The notes below the pieces were generated by a model. That model saw only the letters and a program-made list of their open reading frames with translations. It made no database searches and was not told the origin of the DNA. Shown here one piece after another: positions 10,580 through 19,548 of a stretch of 26,243 nt of DNA (position 1 is the first letter of the stretch; every line of letters begins with the position of its first letter). Position numbers and translations under genes: made by a program. This DNA is from a virus. The stretch lies in IMG/VR virus record IMGVR_UViG_3300046012_000232, positions 1 through 26,243 of that record, one strand, 5' to 3'.

Positions 10580-12085
10580 ATGCCTTTACCCAACCAGGGC
10601 GATCTCAACTGGGCGCCTCCTCTCAATGACTACATCCTCAACACCGTGGGTGCTGAGGCTGACAGTGCGAAGTCCCTGATTGTCACGCATGAATCCACTA
10701 GTGACGCGCACGGGGACCGGGCGTTCGCCTCCGGGCTGATCACGGGTATCACGGCTAATTACGGCATGCCCAATGGCGTGGCCCAGCTGGGCGGTGATGG
10801 CCGGCTCAAGTCCACCCAGGCCCCTCCTGGCGGCGGTGTCACGAATTTCTACGATGTCATCCTGGATTTCGGGGCAGTCGGCAACGGCACCCACGATGAT
10901 GCCCCGGCTATCAATGCGGCGCTGACAGCAGCTGCGGGTGCCGGCGGGGGAGAAGTATGGATCCCGGACGGCACCTTCGCTATCGGCTCCTCCCTGGTCA
11001 TCGGCGCTAACACCTGGCTGAACCTTTCGCCCGGGGCGAAGATCTCCCGTATCGCCAATCCCACCCCGCCGGCCACCATGCTGGCTAACTACACGCCTTC
11101 CACTCTCCCGGCAGCCGGCAATGTCCACGTGTCCGGCGGGCAGTGGGATGCGCTGAACGGATCCATCACCCAGGCGTGCAATGTATTTGCTTTCTTTGAC
11201 GCCGGGTTCTGCCTGTTCGAGCAGACGAAGATCACCGGGCCGGAGAACAGCACCGGCATTCTGCTGGCCGGCTGCTCAGCCATGGTTGTGGACAAGATCC
11301 AGTTCGCCGGCGTAGTTCCCACCCACGCACGCTCCTTCAACGCTAATACAGCGTGCATCCGGATGGAGCCCTCAAACTCCTCGGTGGTTTCCGGCCTGCT
11401 GCCGGGCACCTACACCGGCCTGGGCTGCAACCTGATCGCCGTGACGCACTGCATTCAGGTGGCTTCTACGGCCTCGGATGTCTCCGGGCCCTACACCAAG
11501 TACAATTACATGCTGGCCACCTACGTGTCCGGGGTAACGCATTCCAACATTGAATTCAACTTCAATTACGGCAACGCGTTCGCCAACAACGCGCTGAACC
11601 CGTCCACCTGGGCAACGGTCACGGTTATCGGGAACCAGTTCACCAACTCCGGCACGTCTGTCAACATCACCGGGATCTCCGATCTCCAGGCGACGTCCAA
11701 CTCCCCCGGCACGGGCGCTGTTACCTCCGGCTGGACCCCCCTGACCCTGCTGAACGGATGGGCCCCCGTCGCCGGGGAAATGAAGCCCTCCTACCGGGTG
11801 TCCCCCACCGGCGACACGGAAATTGCGGGAACAGCCTCGGGTGGCTCGGCGAACAGCAACACCATCTTCGCCACTTTGCCGGCCGGGTTCTTCAATACCA
11901 GTGCGGGCTGCCGGCTGGTAGCTTCCCAGACCGGGACAGTCTCTGTCGGGTTCGGCGGCGCGACGATGTCCTGGCCGTATATCGAGATTGATACCTCCGG
12001 TAATATCCGCCTTCGCAACTTCCAGTCCTCTCCCGGGCAGATATCTTTTGCCGGAACCGTGTACAAAACAATCACAAGTGGCTGA
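10580..12085 (+). CDS. Tailspike with pectate-lyase-like beta-helix
   Basis: A 501-residue protein. Residues 1-60 (MPLPNQGDLNWAPPLNDYIL... and ESTSDAHGDRAFASG) look like a virion-attachment segment. From about residue 94 the sequence matches the start of the Pectate_lyase_3 superfamily: DFGAVGNGTHDDAPAINAAL, then GGEVWIPDGTFAIGSSLVIG and LNLSPGAKI. A right-handed beta-helix to about residue 375 fits the short strand repeats. Such proteins bind or cleave surface polysaccharides. I cannot identify catalytic residues, so activity is unproven. Residues 385-501 form a separate module (W.PL.LLNGWAPVAG ... IEIDTSGNIRLRNF) that reappears in the spike gene at 21744-22658. Start ATG 10580 has GGAG 9 bases upstream. 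Its place among neck genes is unusual for a receptor-binding gene. Confidence 0.75.
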   Translation: MPLPNQGDLNWAPPLNDYILNTVGAEADSAKSLIVTHESTSDAHGDRAFASGLITGITANYGMPNGVAQLGGDGRLKSTQAPPGGGVTNFYDVILDFGAVGNGTHDDAPAINAALTAAAGAGGGEVWIPDGTFAIGSSLVIGANTWLNLSPGAKISRIANPTPPATMLANYTPSTLPAAGNVHVSGGQWDALNGSITQACNVFAFFDAGFCLFEQTKITGPENSTGILLAGCSAMVVDKIQFAGVVPTHARSFNANTACIRMEPSNSSVVSGLLPGTYTGLGCNLIAVTHCIQVASTASDVSGPYTKYNYMLATYVSGVTHSNIEFNFNYGNAFANNALNPSTWATVTVIGNQFTNSGTSVNITGISDLQATSNSPGTGAVTSGWTPLTLLNGWAPVAGEMKPSYRVSPTGDTEIAGTASGGSANSNTIFATLPAGFFNTSAGCRLVASQTGTVSVGFGGATMSWPYIEIDTSGNIRLRNFQSSPGQISFAGTVYKTITSG

Positions 12086-12913: not shown

Positions 12914-14440
12914 ATGACCACCTACCACCGGCCTGGTATTTACATCCAGGAGAACCTGAACCCGTTAGCTAACAGCTTCCTGGGTATTTACGGGGAGGCG
13001 ACCCCGTGCTTCGTGGCTGCCTACAACATCGGGCCGAATGTCCCCGTCCTGATTAACAGCTGGAAGCAGTACACCCTGCTGTACGGTGACTTCACCGTTG
13101 CCGGCGGGAATTACCTGCCCTTCGCCGTGTACAACTTCTTCCTGCATGGGGGCCAGTCCTGCTTCATCCTGCGGGTAGAGAACACTGATGCTGTTCCCGG
13201 GCACATCACCCTCCAGGACATCAATACCCCGTCCCCGGACAACATCATGACCATCACGGCCATTTACCCGGGGGCATTCTCTGACAACATTTTCATTGAG
13301 GTCACCACAGCCGGCCAGCCCGGCAGGTTCAACATCAATGTTTACAATGGCTCGGCCCAGCGCGCCTCCCTGGTGGAGTCCTTCATCGATATGAGCGTGA
13401 ATCCGGCCGATCCCCGGAATGTCGTGTCGATCCTGTCCTCGCCCCTGGGAGGCAGCAAGTACGTCACCATCACCGAGGCGCTGCCCGGCGGTGTGTACGT
13501 GCCCGGCACCACGGACCCGGCCCTGATCGCGCCCACAGCCCTGACCGGCGGCGTGGACGGCAGCTCAGCTCCCAACCTGGGGCTCACGGTGCCCACGCGC
13601 CTGGATTACCTCCAGAACCAGATCCTGAATGTCAACCTGCCGGGATACACCGACATCACCACGCTGTCCACTATCAACGAGTGGGCCCAGAACCGTGAAG
13701 ATGTCATGGTGTTCCTGGACGGGCCGGCACCTAACTTCCCGGAGACCAGCGCGCAGGTAGTGACCAACTACCAGAACATGGTCAACGGTGGGCTGTTCCT
13801 GACGACCTTCGCCGCTATCTACGCGCCGTGGATCCTGGTCAAGGACCCCAGCTCTGCTGTGCCCACAGCCACTAAGTGGATTCCCCCCTGCTCGGCTGTC
13901 CTGGCTAACGCGCAGAAGGCCGACACCCTGGTCGGCGCGCAGCAGCCCCCGGCCGGTATTAATTACGGCACGGTCAACTGCGTGGCACTGGAGACCAGCT
14001 TCACCACCACGGACCTGGATACCCTCAACGATTCCCAGATCAATGCGATCAAGAATGTCCCGGGATTCGGCATCAAGATCTTCGGTGTCCGCACTCTGCA
14101 CTTCGGCTACCCGGACCGGTACGTTTCCGTCCGGCGCGTGCTGATGAAGCTGGGGCATGACTTCCAGAACATCCTCCTGTATGCCCTGTTCGAGCCAAAC
14201 GACGAGAAGCTATGGAAGTCCATCTCGACCACGCTGGAACAGTACCTGACTATCCAGATGCAGATGGGCCTGCTGGGCGGCGCCACCCCGGCTCAGTCCT
14301 TCGCAATTATCTGCGACTCCAGCAATAACCCCCCATCCTCGGCTCAGTCAGGAATCGTCAACGTCAGCGTGGCTGTCGCCTTGCTGTCCCCGGCTGAGTT
14401 CATCGTCATCGAGATCAGCCAGCTCACTGCTAGCAGCTAA
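12914..14440 (+). CDS. Contractile tail sheath protein
   Basis: A 508-residue protein, ATG start with AGGAG 6 bases upstream. The N-terminus (TTYHRPGIYIQE) is the classic sheath opening, 'y..PGVYveE'. The middle includes GGQSCFILRVEN ('nGG..cyvvRV') and an acidic, strand-rich domain. The C-terminal domain carries the family signature: GIKIFGVRTLH, YVSVRRVLMKLGHDFQNILLYALFEPNDEKLW, then TPAQSFAIICDSSNN and LLSPAEFIVIEISQL. This is the phage tail sheath family (T4 gp18 / P2 FI-like). It polymerises around the tube and contracts to drive it through the envelope. Length is usual for a two-or-more-domain sheath. The tube gene follows after 13 bases, the standard order. Confidence 0.95.
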   Translation: MTTYHRPGIYIQENLNPLANSFLGIYGEATPCFVAAYNIGPNVPVLINSWKQYTLLYGDFTVAGGNYLPFAVYNFFLHGGQSCFILRVENTDAVPGHITLQDINTPSPDNIMTITAIYPGAFSDNIFIEVTTAGQPGRFNINVYNGSAQRASLVESFIDMSVNPADPRNVVSILSSPLGGSKYVTITEALPGGVYVPGTTDPALIAPTALTGGVDGSSAPNLGLTVPTRLDYLQNQILNVNLPGYTDITTLSTINEWAQNREDVMVFLDGPAPNFPETSAQVVTNYQNMVNGGLFLTTFAAIYAPWILVKDPSSAVPTATKWIPPCSAVLANAQKADTLVGAQQPPAGINYGTVNCVALETSFTTTDLDTLNDSQINAIKNVPGFGIKIFGVRTLHFGYPDRYVSVRRVLMKLGHDFQNILLYALFEPNDEKLWKSISTTLEQYLTIQMQMGLLGGATPAQSFAIICDSSNNPPSSAQSGIVNVSVAVALLSPAEFIVIEISQLTASS

Positions 14441-14453
14441 GGAGAATTGACTC

Positions 14454-15011
14454 ATGGCAGTTAAGGAGACCAGCTCGCTGTCTCATCTGGCGACGGACCC
14501 GTTACGGAACTTCAAGTTCGTGGTAACGATCCAGCCGTCCGGCGGCCAGTCCCCCATCAACATGGGGTTCATGTCCGTATCCGGGCTGAACATGACCGTG
14601 GACGTTATCGCCTACCGTGAGGGCGGCTATAACACCACCACGCAGAAGATGCCCGGGCAGGCAGACTTCTCCCCTATTACCTTCTCGCACGGGGTTATGG
14701 TGGGGAACGCCCCTGACATTGACTGGATGCGGATGCTGTTCGTCGCTATCCAGGGCACCGGCACCTCGTCCCCGGGCACGGATTTCCGTCGCACGGTCCT
14801 GGTGCAGATCCTGGATCACCCGGTTGTGACGGCCTCTAACCCGATCAAGGCGCAGTTCAAAATCTACAACGCCTGGCCCACTTCCATCGCGTGGTCCGAC
14901 CTGGACGCCGGCGCCAACCAGCTGTTCATTTCCCAGCTGGCCCTGGCCCACGAAGGCTTTGACTACACTATCGCTAAGTCGATTGGTGCGTCTGACGCTC
15001 CCAATCCCTAA
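14454..15011 (+). CDS. Tail tube protein, T4 gp19-like
   Basis: A 185-residue protein, ATG start with AAGGAG 10 bases upstream. The N-terminal pattern TDPLRNFKFVVTIQ, then MGFMSVSGLNMTVDVIAYREGG and TTTQKMPGQADFSPITFSHGVM is the hallmark of the T4-like tail tube family ('dPl...nF.v.i.g....f..vsGl..e.d...yReGg......k.pG.....vtl..G'). The C-terminal half gives VLVQILDH, FKIYNAWPTSIAWSDLDAGANQLFISQLALAHEGFDY, again typical. The protein forms stacked hexamers making the inner tube through which DNA passes. Location directly after the sheath gene agrees. Confidence 0.95.
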   Translation: MAVKETSSLSHLATDPLRNFKFVVTIQPSGGQSPINMGFMSVSGLNMTVDVIAYREGGYNTTTQKMPGQADFSPITFSHGVMVGNAPDIDWMRMLFVAIQGTGTSSPGTDFRRTVLVQILDHPVVTASNPIKAQFKIYNAWPTSIAWSDLDAGANQLFISQLALAHEGFDYTIAKSIGASDAPNP

Positions 15012-15046: not shown

Positions 15047-15922
15047 GTGACAGCAACCCGCACCGGCCGGCCTCGCCCGGCGGCCGAAGCAAAGAACCCA
15101 CTGAACGACCCAATTGCGGCAAACAGGGAAATCGAGGAAGTTCTCAAGAACACCATCGCTGACTACCCCACGCCGGATCTGCCTCCCGATGACCTGGTTC
15201 TGCTCCCGGCCGGCCTGCTGACTGGCCAGGATCTGACGAAGTCCGTGGTCGTGCGGGAACTGACCGGCGAGGACGAGGAAGCCTTAGCGCGCGCTGTCCA
15301 GAACAACAACGTGTTCCACTACGTGGACACCATCCTGGAGCACGGCACCGTAAAGATCGGGGACACCGATCCCGAGGACATCCGCAAGAACCTCAGGAAC
15401 CTGCTGATCGGTGACCGGGACGCTGTTCTCCTGGGCATCCGGCGCGCCACGTACGGGGATGAGATCTCCATCCCGGAGTGGGTGTGCCCTGCCTGCGGGG
15501 AGCTGGCTGACATCTCCATGACCCTGGAGGACATCCCTGCCAGGGAAATGGATGACCCGGCCGAGTCCTCGGTGTTCACCGTCAAGCTGCGCCGTGGCCG
15601 GTCAGCGCGCGTGCGACTGGCTAACGGGCATGACCAGGCAGCGGTGTTCGAGAACCCCAAGCTCTCCCAGGCTGAGCGGGACACCGTCCTGCTCTCGCGC
15701 TGCGTGCTGACACTCACCTATGAGGATGGCTCAGAGCGCAACCTGGCCGGCTTCCCGTCCCTGGCCCGGGGAATGTCCATGGCTGACCGCAAGACGATCC
15801 TGCGCGAGCTGGCAGAGCGTCAGCCCGGCCCCCGGTTCACCGATATCAAGCACACGCACGGCGCGTGCGGGAAAGAGGTAAGCATCGCCGTTGATATCGG
15901 CACCTTGTTTCTCAACTCCTGA
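15047..15922 (+). CDS. T4 gp26-like baseplate / tail assembly chaperone protein
   Basis: A 291-residue protein with GTG start 15047 (TGGAGAA upstream). The middle matches the T4 gp26-type base plate family by pattern: LPAGLLTG, VVVRELTGEDEEALARA, LLIGDRDAVLLGIRRATYGDEI, then VCPACGE. Cys147 and Cys150, with His269, His271 and Cys274 near the end (HTHGACGKE), look like a zinc-binding set. Proteins of this family lie between tube and tape measure genes and are often annotated as tail assembly chaperones, helping tube assembly around the tape measure. It stops at TGA (15920-15922) directly after codon TCC. A conserved-looking sequence continues in the +1 frame, so a longer frameshift product (340 residues) is likely. 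Confidence 0.75.
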   Translation: MTATRTGRPRPAAEAKNPLNDPIAANREIEEVLKNTIADYPTPDLPPDDLVLLPAGLLTGQDLTKSVVVRELTGEDEEALARAVQNNNVFHYVDTILEHGTVKIGDTDPEDIRKNLRNLLIGDRDAVLLGIRRATYGDEISIPEWVCPACGELADISMTLEDIPAREMDDPAESSVFTVKLRRGRSARVRLANGHDQAAVFENPKLSQAERDTVLLSRCVLTLTYEDGSERNLAGFPSLARGMSMADRKTILRELAERQPGPRFTDIKHTHGACGKEVSIAVDIGTLFLNS

Positions 15923-16070
15923 GAAATACGCCAGTTACCGCAACGACCTGCACGTCCTGGTCAGCCTGACTTCCTGGACTTTCGCAGACATCAGCAAGCT
16001 GGCCGTCCGGGAGCGTAAGTACTGGACCCGGTGGATGACTGTACGGGCAGAGCGGAGGCGTGGTGGCTAG
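15921..16070 (+). CDS. Downstream half of tail assembly chaperone, probable +1 frameshift extension
   Basis: Forty-nine codons in the +1 frame relative to the upstream gene, ending TAG 16068-16070 and overlapping the tape measure start. The product (EKYASYRNDLHVLVSLT, SWTFADISKLAVRERKYW, TRWMTVRAERRRGG) has the helical, Trp/Arg-rich 'LH.L......sy.di..m.vrer.yW' pattern known from the second half of tail assembly chaperones. There is no ATG or GTG start before the conserved part. The frame is open only from 15882, and the sole alternative is TTG 15891 with a ribosome site 12 bases away. A +1 slip at UCC-UGA would give ...FLNS-EKYASY.... Coding is well supported; the expression route is inferred. 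Confidence 0.6.
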   Translation, partial: EKYASYRNDLHVLVSLTSWTFADISKLAVRERKYWTRWMTVRAERRRGG

Positions 16071-19000
16071 GGAGCGCGACAACGATGAGGGGCTCGGCGC
16101 GTTTTCCGGCGCGCCGAGTTCTTCTCTGCCCAGCTGGGGTGCGGGCTCACCGGCTGCGGCCGGCTCTTTGCTGGGCACCAACATGCTCCAGCAGTCCATT
16201 GATGCCAACACCCGGGCGTTAAGCGCAGCTGCCTCTGCCTTTGCCCGGGCATCAGGCCAGGCAGCACCCGGCTCGGGGTCGGGTGTTCCCTGGGTTCACC
16301 CCACAATGGCCGGGCTGGCTGCTGGTGCATTCCCCCGTCCCCAGAGCACCTTGTACGATTTCCGGTCCGGGCAGATGCCCCAGGGCCCCACCTCTGCTTA
16401 CCCCCAGCAGGGAGGCGTCCCCTGGGTCTCCCCGGCCCTGGCCGGCCGGGGGCGCCAGTACGGTCCCCAGCCCGGCCCGGGTGGTTTCCCGGGTGTTGTC
16501 AACAACATGTCCCCGCAGGGCCCATACTCCTCAGTGAACAGGTTCGGGGGCGGCCCGGTCAACTGGAGCACCTCCATCGGCCCGGCAGTCATCAACCCGT
16601 TCATGAACGGGCAGCAGCCTCCTATTGTCGGCCCGACAGCGCAGAAGCTGCCCTCCGGGCAGGTCATCACCTCCCCAGGACCGGCCGGTGGCCCTCCTGC
16701 CGTGCCTCCCCGGGGTTATATGGGCGCACTGCCCGGTACTCCCCCCCGCAATTACACCGGGCTGAAAGTCATGGGCGGCACGCTGGGCGCTGTGGCCGCA
16801 GCGTCGGTGCTCTTTGGCCGGGGAATGCTGGATGACCAGGTAGTGGCGAACGCCTACACCTCAGCTGCAACGACAGCCGCACCCCTGGGCGCCAACCCGT
16901 CCTCCATCAACTCCCTGGCGCGCTACCAGGCGTTCGGCACGGCCGGGCGCAACCTTAACAGCGTCTCCTTCAACACCCAGGATGCTGCCCAGGGTGCCGC
17001 TTCCCTGGCGTACATCGGCGGCTACGTCCCAGGCATGCAGATGGGCGCTAACGGGCGCGCTGTCAATTCAGCGTTCAACGCCATCGGCCTTGCCAACCCC
17101 GGGCTAGGCGCAGCCGGGTCTGCTGCACTGACCGGCCAGGTGTACTCCCAGAGCACGGCACTGCGCATGCAGCAGCTGGGTTACCGCACGACGCCCAGGA
17201 CCATGAACGGTGGCTGGAATAATATGGCCACCAATGTTCAGTCCCTGCTTCAGCGCTGGTACGGGTCAAAATCAGTTGACCAGAAATCCCTGGTTGCCAG
17301 CTTGTCAGCTGGCGGCGTGGGCGCCTACAACCTCCAGGCCCTGGGGTACAACCCCCAGCAGATTCAGCAGCTGACCCCGGTTATCGAGACCTATAACAAG
17401 CTGTCCAACGCCGGGCTGTCCAATGACCGGGCTAATTCCCTGATCCAGCGCGCTACCCGGGGGTCGCAGTCCTCCATGCTGGCTGCCCAGGATGAGCTGG
17501 CTTCCAAATACGGGATCCAGAAGTCCGATCTCCAGGCGCTGAAGGACAAGAGCGCTGTGCGCACCGGCAATCTGTCCGATATCTCCGGCGGTTACAACTC
17601 CGCACTCCAGGAAAGCGTCAAGCTGCTGGGCCAGTTCAACCAGATGCTGAATGACATCATGCGCACTACCCACACCACGGGCCTGCTGGGCGGTGCAGCA
17701 GGAGTCGGGGGAGCGCTGTCCACTATCGCCCACGGAGGGGAACTGGCTGGAGGCGCTTACGGTGCACTGCGCATCGCCTCCCTGCTCAAGGGAGGCGGCA
17801 AGTTGCTGGAGGGCAAGGGCGCTGCTGACACCCTGGGCAGCGCCGGGGGGAAGCTGAGCGCCCTGCTGAAAGGCAGGCTGCCCGGTATCTTCGGCGGTGC
17901 AGCTGAGGGAGGGGCGGCAGCAGCGGAGGGAGGCGCCGCAGCAGCTGGCGCTGAGGGATTAGCAGCAGGTGCGGGTCCCATTGGCCTGGGCGCGCTGACT
18001 GTGTTCGGCCTGGGCAAGTTCCTGCTGGATCACACCGACCCTAATACGGCACCGCCCCCCGGGTTCTCGGCCCGGTTCGGGCCCGGTGCCTGGGGTGGCA
18101 CACGCAGCCAGCGCGTGAACGTCGGGGGCGGCGCCGGGCCTTCCACGCAGAACACGAACAAGACCAAGCAGAATCCGGGGAAAGGCAACAAGCAGACAGT
18201 CGGGGGGTCTGTCTCCGGCCCGGCGCGCAGTGCCGTCAATGCAGCCGAGACCCGTCTTGGTGACCCGTATGTGTTCGGCGCTGACGGCCCCAACGCCTTC
18301 GACTGCTCTGGTCTGGTGGAGTGGTCCTACAAGCAGGCCGGCGTGCAGCTGCCCCGTACGTCCCAGGGTCAGTGGTTCGGCCTGAAAGACCGGCGTGTTT
18401 CCCTGAACAACGTTCAGGAAGGTGACATCGTATTCGCCGCCGGCTCGGACGGCACGTCCACGAGCCCTGGCCATGAGGCCATGATGATCAACCAGAGGAT
18501 GATCATCGAGGCATCACACACGGGCGCCCCGGTAGCTGTGCGGCCATTCAACCCGCACGAGTGGATCGGCGCTGCGCGCCCCCGTGGCTCAGTAGCCGGC
18601 CAGGGCGGTCCCAGGGGAGGAGGACCCGGCACATCCAACCAGTCCGGGAGCGGCATCCAGGGCAACACCGGGCGGGGGGGCCTGATGGGGGGAGGCGTTG
18701 GCTTCGGCTCCACGGAGGCAACCACCCTGGGTTCGGCTATGTCCGAGTCCGAGATGCTGGCCGGGGGCGGCACTTTCGCCGGCTCCCTGGGCAATGTGGT
18801 GAGCAACAATAACGGAGGCGGCTCGTCCACAGGTGGGGGCACCGGCCCGGGTGGCGGCAGGATCAATCACGGGCGCACCGGGAACCTCAAGGGCAACCGG
18901 GCCATCATGAACAAATGGGCCTCCAAGTACGGCTGGGGAACAGGGAAAGAGTGGGGCGCCCTGGTTACCCTGGAAATGCACGAGGCAGGATTCAATAACC

Positions 19001-19548
19001 TGGCGCAGAATCCGAGGTCCACAGCGTTCGGGATGGGCCAGTTCCTGGACAGCACCTGGGCTTCTGTAGGCGGCCACAAGACCTCCGACCCCAACCTCCA
19101 GTCCGATTACATGATGCGCTACATAAAGCAGCGCTATCACGATCCTGTGCGCGCCTGGGCCCAGTACTACAACCATGCCGGGGGCGTTGGGTGGTACGGG
19201 CACGGTGGCAAGATGCGCGCCGGCGAGCTGGCCCTGGTTGGTGACCGTGGCCCGGAGCTGGTGGCTGCCGGCAAGGACGGCGCAACGGTGATGAGCGCAG
19301 CCCGTACCTCTGAGCTGCTCTCAGGTTCTAATTCCATGACCCAGCAGATGGGCTCCCTGAACACTAAGAGCCACCACGCAGGGTCCAGTGTCACGCTGAA
19401 TTTCGGGCCCGGCTCGGTGGTTCTGGGAACTGTCAACGGAAGTTACAACGACAGCGCCAACGCAGCGCGCGTGTTCATCCGCAAGCTGCGCAAGGAGCTG
19501 GAGAACGAGCACGTCTACATGGTGATTGCTGAAGGAGGCAAGAACTGA
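16060..19548 (+). CDS. Tape measure protein with NlpC/P60 and transglycosylase domains
   Basis: A 1162-residue protein with adjacent GTG codons (16060, 16063); GGAGG lies just upstream, so 16063 may be the real start. Residues 1-230 are Gly/Pro/Gln-rich. Hydrophobic stretches near 237-252, 541-557 and 633-656 suit a tape measure that contacts membrane. Residues about 721-850 are an NlpC/P60 peptidase domain: Cys749 in DCSGL, His805 in GHEAMMI, with His820 a possible third catalytic residue. Residues about 945-1050 resemble a lytic transglycosylase: Glu975 in MHEAGF, then AFGMGQFLDSTW and RAWAQYYN. The C-terminus has AGELALVGDRGPELV, typical of tape measures. The protein sets tail length and probably loosens peptidoglycan during entry. 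The central region is the likely ruler. Enzyme activity is inferred from motifs. Confidence 0.9.
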   Translation: MVARERDNDEGLGAFSGAPSSSLPSWGAGSPAAAGSLLGTNMLQQSIDANTRALSAAASAFARASGQAAPGSGSGVPWVHPTMAGLAAGAFPRPQSTLYDFRSGQMPQGPTSAYPQQGGVPWVSPALAGRGRQYGPQPGPGGFPGVVNNMSPQGPYSSVNRFGGGPVNWSTSIGPAVINPFMNGQQPPIVGPTAQKLPSGQVITSPGPAGGPPAVPPRGYMGALPGTPPRNYTGLKVMGGTLGAVAAASVLFGRGMLDDQVVANAYTSAATTAAPLGANPSSINSLARYQAFGTAGRNLNSVSFNTQDAAQGAASLAYIGGYVPGMQMGANGRAVNSAFNAIGLANPGLGAAGSAALTGQVYSQSTALRMQQLGYRTTPRTMNGGWNNMATNVQSLLQRWYGSKSVDQKSLVASLSAGGVGAYNLQALGYNPQQIQQLTPVIETYNKLSNAGLSNDRANSLIQRATRGSQSSMLAAQDELASKYGIQKSDLQALKDKSAVRTGNLSDISGGYNSALQESVKLLGQFNQMLNDIMRTTHTTGLLGGAAGVGGALSTIAHGGELAGGAYGALRIASLLKGGGKLLEGKGAADTLGSAGGKLSALLKGRLPGIFGGAAEGGAAAAEGGAAAAGAEGLAAGAGPIGLGALTVFGLGKFLLDHTDPNTAPPPGFSARFGPGAWGGTRSQRVNVGGGAGPSTQNTNKTKQNPGKGNKQTVGGSVSGPARSAVNAAETRLGDPYVFGADGPNAFDCSGLVEWSYKQAGVQLPRTSQGQWFGLKDRRVSLNNVQEGDIVFAAGSDGTSTSPGHEAMMINQRMIIEASHTGAPVAVRPFNPHEWIGAARPRGSVAGQGGPRGGGPGTSNQSGSGIQGNTGRGGLMGGGVGFGSTEATTLGSAMSESEMLAGGGTFAGSLGNVVSNNNGGGSSTGGGTGPGGGRINHGRTGNLKGNRAIMNKWASKYGWGTGKEWGALVTLEMHEAGFNNLAQNPRSTAFGMGQFLDSTWASVGGHKTSDPNLQSDYMMRYIKQRYHDPVRAWAQYYNHAGGVGWYGHGGKMRAGELALVGDRGPELVAAGKDGATVMSAARTSELLSGSNSMTQQMGSLNTKSHHAGSSVTLNFGPGSVVLGTVNGSYNDSANAARVFIRKLRKELENEHVYMVIAEGGKN

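Follow-up and report, generated by a model that had tools for sequence, protein, structure and literature searches.

A probable +1 programmed frameshift at a conserved UUU_C or CUU_Y site in gp26-like tail chaperone genes of phages

By what route, and at which codon, would ribosomes reach the second reading frame that runs past the end of a phage tail chaperone gene? The question is raised by a metagenomic virus contig, a virus record of 26,243 bases analysed here over its whole length (the window). Its chaperone ORF ends AAC TCC TGA, with TCC at 15917-15919, and the +1 frame, open from 15882 (after a TAA at 15879-15881) to a TAG at 16068-16070, continues from GAG 15921 for 49 codons past the 0-frame stop. 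There is no ATG or GTG in this open stretch, in which TTG 15891 is the sole candidate start, and stop codons at 15967-15969 and 16036-16038 interrupt the -1 frame. These frames had been given in a preliminary description of the window, and they held when the letters were read again; the same description had proposed a +1 programmed frameshift at UCC-UGA. Tail chaperone frameshifts are usually -1.

The gene is a member of the T4 gp26 (PF12322) family. It matched this profile (T4 baseplate, gp26) with 37.4 bits (E 2.8e-9; curated cut-off 24.5) and PHROG 150 ("baseplate hub") with E 4.4e-13. An AlphaFold2 model of the chaperone, folded separately from the extension as a chain of its own, had a mean pLDDT of 89 and retrieved with Foldseek gp26 and T4-like baseplate hub assembly proteins (best E 1.6e-21), so that profile and fold both bear out the gp26-like label first given to the gene. 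The protein has two Cys-x-x-Cys-like motifs. The genes are arranged with the sheath upstream, followed by tail tube, chaperone and tape measure (Table 1), and the GTG start of the tape measure overlaps the last 11 nt of the +1 extension. In the tape measure itself there is a peptidase domain of the NlpC/P60 type, as well as a region resembling transglycosylases.

Table 1. Positions of the features discussed, in the window unless a locus is named
Feature	Position	Strand	Remarks
Tail sheath gene	12914..14440	+	PF17482; PHROG 23, E 3.2e-40
Tail tube gene (gp19-like)	14454..15011	+	PF06841, E 3.4e-26
T4-gp26-like tail (hub/tape-measure) chaperone	15047..15922	+	GTG start, TGA stop; 0-frame product 291 aa
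Putative +1 slip site TTT_C	15908..15911	+	P-site Phe UUU -> UUC; Phe288 of the chaperone
+1-frame extension, 52 codons (STPEKYASYR...AERRRGG) and TAG	15912..16070	+	Open in all homologues; pN/pS; fold; profile matches
0-frame TGA stop, ending the non-shifted product	15920..15922	+	Context varies among homologues; outside the conserved shift signal
Tape measure gene	16060..19548	+	ORF call; PF00877; PHROG tape measure matches
Small genes annotated in LuckySocke, GiJojo, BRock, Alone3 and SP-15	L002:3737-3892, L003:3722-3919, L004:3689-3871, L006:3737-3892, L208:35810-35929		

Searching phage records with tblastn, we found homologues in the Streptomyces phages BRock, LuckySocke, Alone3, GiJojo and pSt2308 (40-44% identity), with the same gene order. 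The last codons of the chaperone are GAA CTC in all five, followed by TGA or TAA, and the +1 frame runs directly on into a conserved domain. Viral contigs queried with the single window protein gave no relatives, whereas an alignment query did find them and yielded, from viral and bacterial contigs, a first set of 63 distinct loci (the window and two named phages counted in). A second scan added 37 further loci that served as a replication set. The total of 100 distinct loci falls into 33 single-linkage clusters of chaperones at 60% amino acid identity and, as the loci are not independent, the clusters are the proper unit for counting. Each of the 100 loci can be read in the +1 frame past the 0-frame stop without interruption, and into the same domain, which goes far past what chance would give. 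For the sequence beyond that stop, pN/pS was calculated over 242 pairs, and the values were 0.20 for the +1 frame, 1.87 and 1.54 for the two remaining frames. Judged by these substitution patterns, purifying selection acts on the +1 reading of the extension, and the early impression that this stretch codes for protein has been borne out, with the same domain in 100 loci.

What does not change near the end of these chaperone genes is a YUU_Y motif, present in 100/100 loci as UUU_C (75), UUU_U (2) or CUU_Y (23) and invariant across all 33 clusters. The invariant UUU codes in frame 0 for the Phe at the end of a Leu-Phe pair. In the 23 loci of what we call group B, where the chaperone ends L-L-F-G/S-stop, the invariant codon is CTT and the next base T or C. 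At the other Phe codons of the first-set genes with UUU_C (group A), TTT was used 48 times and TTC 200 times, and TTT followed by C occurred in 7/248 (3/264 in the CDSs of the window). The slip context of the window is TTT CTC, and the homologues have CGN, CTN, CAG, CAA or CCN as A-site codon; with respect to the UUU_CGN class typified by PA-X, the window thus has the P-site UUU followed by C and lacks the CGN in the A site. For group B (CUU_YUA) the assignment of the slip codon is less certain, because the bases flanking it are also invariant. The chaperone genes of this group (L043-L086) end in a near-invariant TGGGYCTCMCTTYTATTC, and none of the models considered here accounts for one of its bases, a synonymous C that precedes the slip codon.

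The site first proposed, UCC-UGA, would imply that ribosomes slip while a stop codon that is slow to be decoded occupies the A site, the mechanism of RF2, of antizyme and of the tail gene of Listeria phage PSA, and would predict the junction peptide EVSIAVDIGTLFLNSEK. UCC UGA does occur in the window, and PSA provides a precedent for a stop-adjacent +1 shift, there on a proline codon. However, the codon preceding the stop varies freely among the loci (CTC, CTG, GTC, GCC, TAC, TTC, GAG, GAT, CAG, GGC, CTA, TTA, ATC, CGC, TCC and others) and is often a non-slippery one (GAG, CAG, GAT, TAC, GGC). The stop sits 3-9 codons downstream of the invariant UUU_Y and, as described below, the constraint in the +1 frame starts upstream of it. 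Aligning homologues, the check that had been suggested, upheld the conservation of the +1 frame (100/100 loci) and went against that of TCC TGA, since TCC-stop is present in just 2/100. A shift at UCC-UGA is in our opinion improbable, and the site as first proposed very probably wrong. The stop-codon-mediated +1 class (RF2, antizyme, PSA tail) was rejected for these genes, as the stop does not adjoin the conserved slippery codon and stands in differing contexts. With it fall the parallels drawn to antizyme, PSA and SPP1; better analogues are UUU_CGU of influenza PA-X and TTT-CGC of the HF1-group haloviruses.

The constraint on the two frames indicates where the shift would fall; were it at the stop itself, the third positions of frame 0 should be free to vary from UUU_C up to that point. 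In the four loci that have seven codons from slip to stop, the third positions of frame 0 are invariant from the second codon after the slip onward, and the first positions of frame 0 (that is, the third positions of the +1 frame) vary. These four loci are a small set, and more weight should be given to the pooled third-position difference rate over all pairs, which was 0.43 upstream of the slip site and 0.16 between slip and stop. Dual-frame constraint starts adjacent to the slip codon, ahead of the 0-frame stop. Since the stretch from slip to stop is constrained in the +1 frame, the shift should come before the stop.

Another way to express the extension would be as a separate small protein, through internal or coupled initiation. 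This is what its relative DUF6760 suggests for the actinobacterial injection systems, where in most of the eCIS loci examined the ATG or GTG shares bases with the stop of the preceding gene (NTGA), in the -1 register, and the window does offer TTG 15891 in its +1 frame. However, when we scanned the +1 frame from 90 nt before the 0-frame stop (or from the upstream stop) to 21 nt past it, ATG, GTG and TTG were all absent in 60/100 loci, and ATG and GTG in 69/100, so that the lack of an ATG or GTG initially remarked on in the window extends to these homologues. Several loci have a +1 stop as little as 5-14 nt ahead of the slip codon, and in two of them (L020 and L041) the distance is 5 nt. With so few starts available and +1 stops so close upstream, separate initiation could not serve as the general mechanism. 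Besides, the starts annotated in LuckySocke, GiJojo and BRock fall inside the conserved domain, the NTGA overlap start is not seen in these three phages, and initiation of any kind leaves the invariant third base of UUU unexplained. We consider a separate protein very improbable.

The explanation that we favour, and hold to be highly probable from the comparative evidence, is that a +1 slip at UUU_C in the gp26-like gene gives products of 291 and 340 aa, a pair of the G/GT type. The majority of the ribosomes would stop at TGA 15920-15922 and produce the gp26-like chaperone of 291 aa. In a minority, the peptidyl-tRNA-Phe would move from UUU 15908-15910 to UUC 15909-15911, a re-pairing that would be favourable, as the G34:U3 wobble becomes G:C. 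Translation would then resume at UCA 15912, and the result would be a fusion of 340 aa (...VDIGTLF-STPEKYASYR...) carrying the 52-residue three-helix domain and having EVSIAVDIGTLFSTPEK as its expected junction peptide. In a one-base forward slip from UUU to UUY or from CUU to UUY, tRNA-Phe(GAA) or tRNA-Leu(GAG) can re-pair, and CUU is the slip codon of RF2 too. We found no enrichment of an upstream Shine-Dalgarno stimulator like that of RF2 (mean z about 0), and no consistent signal of a downstream RNA structure as stimulator in eight loci. The 0-frame A-site codons (CGC, CTC, CAG) are mostly common ones and count against the slip at UUU_C, as they would provide no drive for slippage.

The gene's place in the order tube, chaperone, tape measure, and the relationship of its extension with P2 E' and DUF6760, lead us to infer that the two products, short and long, work as a pair of the G/GT type that prepares the tape measure for tube assembly. 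The gene resembles such pairs in its location between the tail tube and tape measure genes, in its conserved slippery site (UUU_Y or CUU_Y in all loci) and in a second frame that is conserved, appears to be under purifying selection and has no start of its own. It departs from most known cases, which are -1, in that the register is +1 in all loci. The +1 programmed frameshift that had been put forward for this tail chaperone gene is, from the open +1 register in 100/100 loci and the pN/pS of 0.20, strongly supported.

That the window is a metagenomic contig might suggest a sequencing indel or a decaying pseudogene, which is hardly credible here and refuted by conservation, as the identical frame break is found in the isolated phages BRock, LuckySocke, Alone3, GiJojo and pSt2308 and in about 100 contigs under purifying selection. 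Slippage of the transcript rather than the ribosome, which the short T run at the site could bring to mind as a source of +1 messages, has a negligible probability, as most loci have only three T, part of group B has CTTC, and T runs this short are not known to us to support RNA polymerase slippage.

What the shift would add is a small domain, for which AlphaFold2 (41 sequences) predicted three helices with a pLDDT of 92, and which has the conserved core W-x-L-x-D-I-K-x-L-x-V-R-E-R-x-Y/H-W. With hhalign, the extension was similar to DUF6760 of actinobacterial injection systems (probability 90, score 34.0) and to E' of P2-like phages (probability 76, score 29.7). Both scores exceed all of those from 150 column-shuffled controls each, whose maxima were 19.3 for DUF6760 and 18.7 for P2 E', which places the extension with these proteins at the level of profile-profile similarity. 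At the Pfam cut-off of DUF6760 (PF20546) the window extension gave no match, and the best member of the set reached an E of 0.013. A structure search with the extension alone gave no significant match; its list of weak ones has proteins from the phages ctgXL3, LE4 and Special G, also present in the list of the chaperone, as well as a tape measure chaperone.

In the actinobacterial eCIS, the gene upstream of DUF6760 codes for a short gp26-like protein (probability 94), and both modules are homologous to those of the window and in the same order, except that DUF6760 is a separate gene with its own overlapping start. This start is often preceded by GGGGGA and, in L096-L103 and L108, the NTGA overlap with GGGGGA just upstream is a conserved coupled-initiation signal. 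One actinobacterial gp26-like gene (L127:1375-2124) closes, without any change of frame, with a helical segment that contains W and resembles the small domain; by inspection, it is apparently a natural in-frame fusion of a gp26-like protein and the small C-terminal domain. In phage P2, the E' part of gpE+E' is homologous to the extension by profile and also ends at an overlapping tape measure start, but it is added by a -1 shift, and gpE looks dissimilar to gp26 by inspection. The G and G-T proteins of phage lambda are likewise a short and a long chaperone encoded upstream of the tape measure; the two-product logic would be the same, although the shift is -1 and the likeness is one of gene position and product pair. 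A chaperone homologue (probability 97) is also encoded by the divergent Bacillus phage SP-15, whose layout agrees with that of the window: TTT TTT C precedes the stop by seven codons and the +1 frame is open. As a single sequence, the SP-15 extension was not significant against the extension profile.

Slipping by +1 at UUU_CGC itself has precedents, having been proposed in the HF1-group haloviruses and shown in influenza PA-X. For the tail assembly chaperones of the former (HF2, Hardycor2, HSTV-2) a +1 shift at TTT-CGC was proposed from few genomes, with a remark on the rare TTT codon (PMC7230728, PMC5009743), and for HSTV-2 it has been rated "very likely". Upon re-reading HF2 and HSTV-2 we found TTT CGC shortly before the stop and the +1 frame open; these sites in the chaperone genes are at L112:15470-15520 (HSTV-2) and L209:7341-7400 (HF2, minus strand). 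The order of tube, chaperone and tape measure, and the end of the first frame soon after TTT CGC, are as in the window. On the other hand, the hosts are archaea, the first products of HF2 and HSTV-2 are dissimilar to gp26 by inspection, and the HF2 extension, as a single sequence, has no significant match to our extension profile. This suggests a convergent use of one slip site by chaperones apparently unrelated to gp26. In influenza A virus, UCC_UUU_CGU was shown to support the +1 shifting that gives PA-X (PMC3498833), again from a P-site UUU_C and with no obvious stimulator, although on a eukaryotic ribosome and in an unrelated gene.

T4 gp26 is homologous to the window chaperone, and both gp26 and gp51 are listed as hub assembly chaperones. 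However, gene 26 of T4 directly adjoins gene 25, with gene 51 divergent; gp51, tried as a homologue of the extension, gave no significant match. A major review exempts T4 from the G-T rule, whereas relatives of T4 gp26 do seem to have a frameshift, of the +1 kind, at a minimal UUU_Y or CUU_Y that is invariant in all homologues examined. We would give about even chances to a family-wide reading, by which in bacteria an obligatory +1 slip at a bare YUU_Y, with neither a stop codon nor an evident stimulator, adds a domain of the P2-E'/DUF6760 type to chaperones of the T4-gp26 type in many phages. There would have been one ancestral two-module chaperone, which the various lineages would now express through a +1 shift, a -1 shift, an in-frame fusion or coupled genes; the pair 26 and 51 of T4 would have arisen by a later split. 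These genes would then be a natural and widely replicated bacterial system for forward slipping without stop codon, rare codon or visible stimulator, and the chaperones of P2 and of T4-type phages would be connected with those of injection systems by one small domain. A literature search with thin coverage of subscription journals and preprints returned neither a frameshift in the gp26 family and its conservation in bacterial phages, nor the CUU_Y variant, nor a connection between the extension and P2 E' or DUF6760, nor a description of DUF6760. Because most subscription journals and preprints fell outside the search, this absence is weak evidence.

The probable frameshift is missed by public annotations, in which the second frame is split or absent. 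In LuckySocke, GiJojo, BRock, Alone3 and SP-15 there is a small separate hypothetical gene that begins inside the +1 extension (Table 1), and the annotation of pSt2308 has no gene at all for it. In the window, a pectate-lyase-like tail spike gene (10580-12085) lies upstream of the tail sheath gene and not after the baseplate genes.
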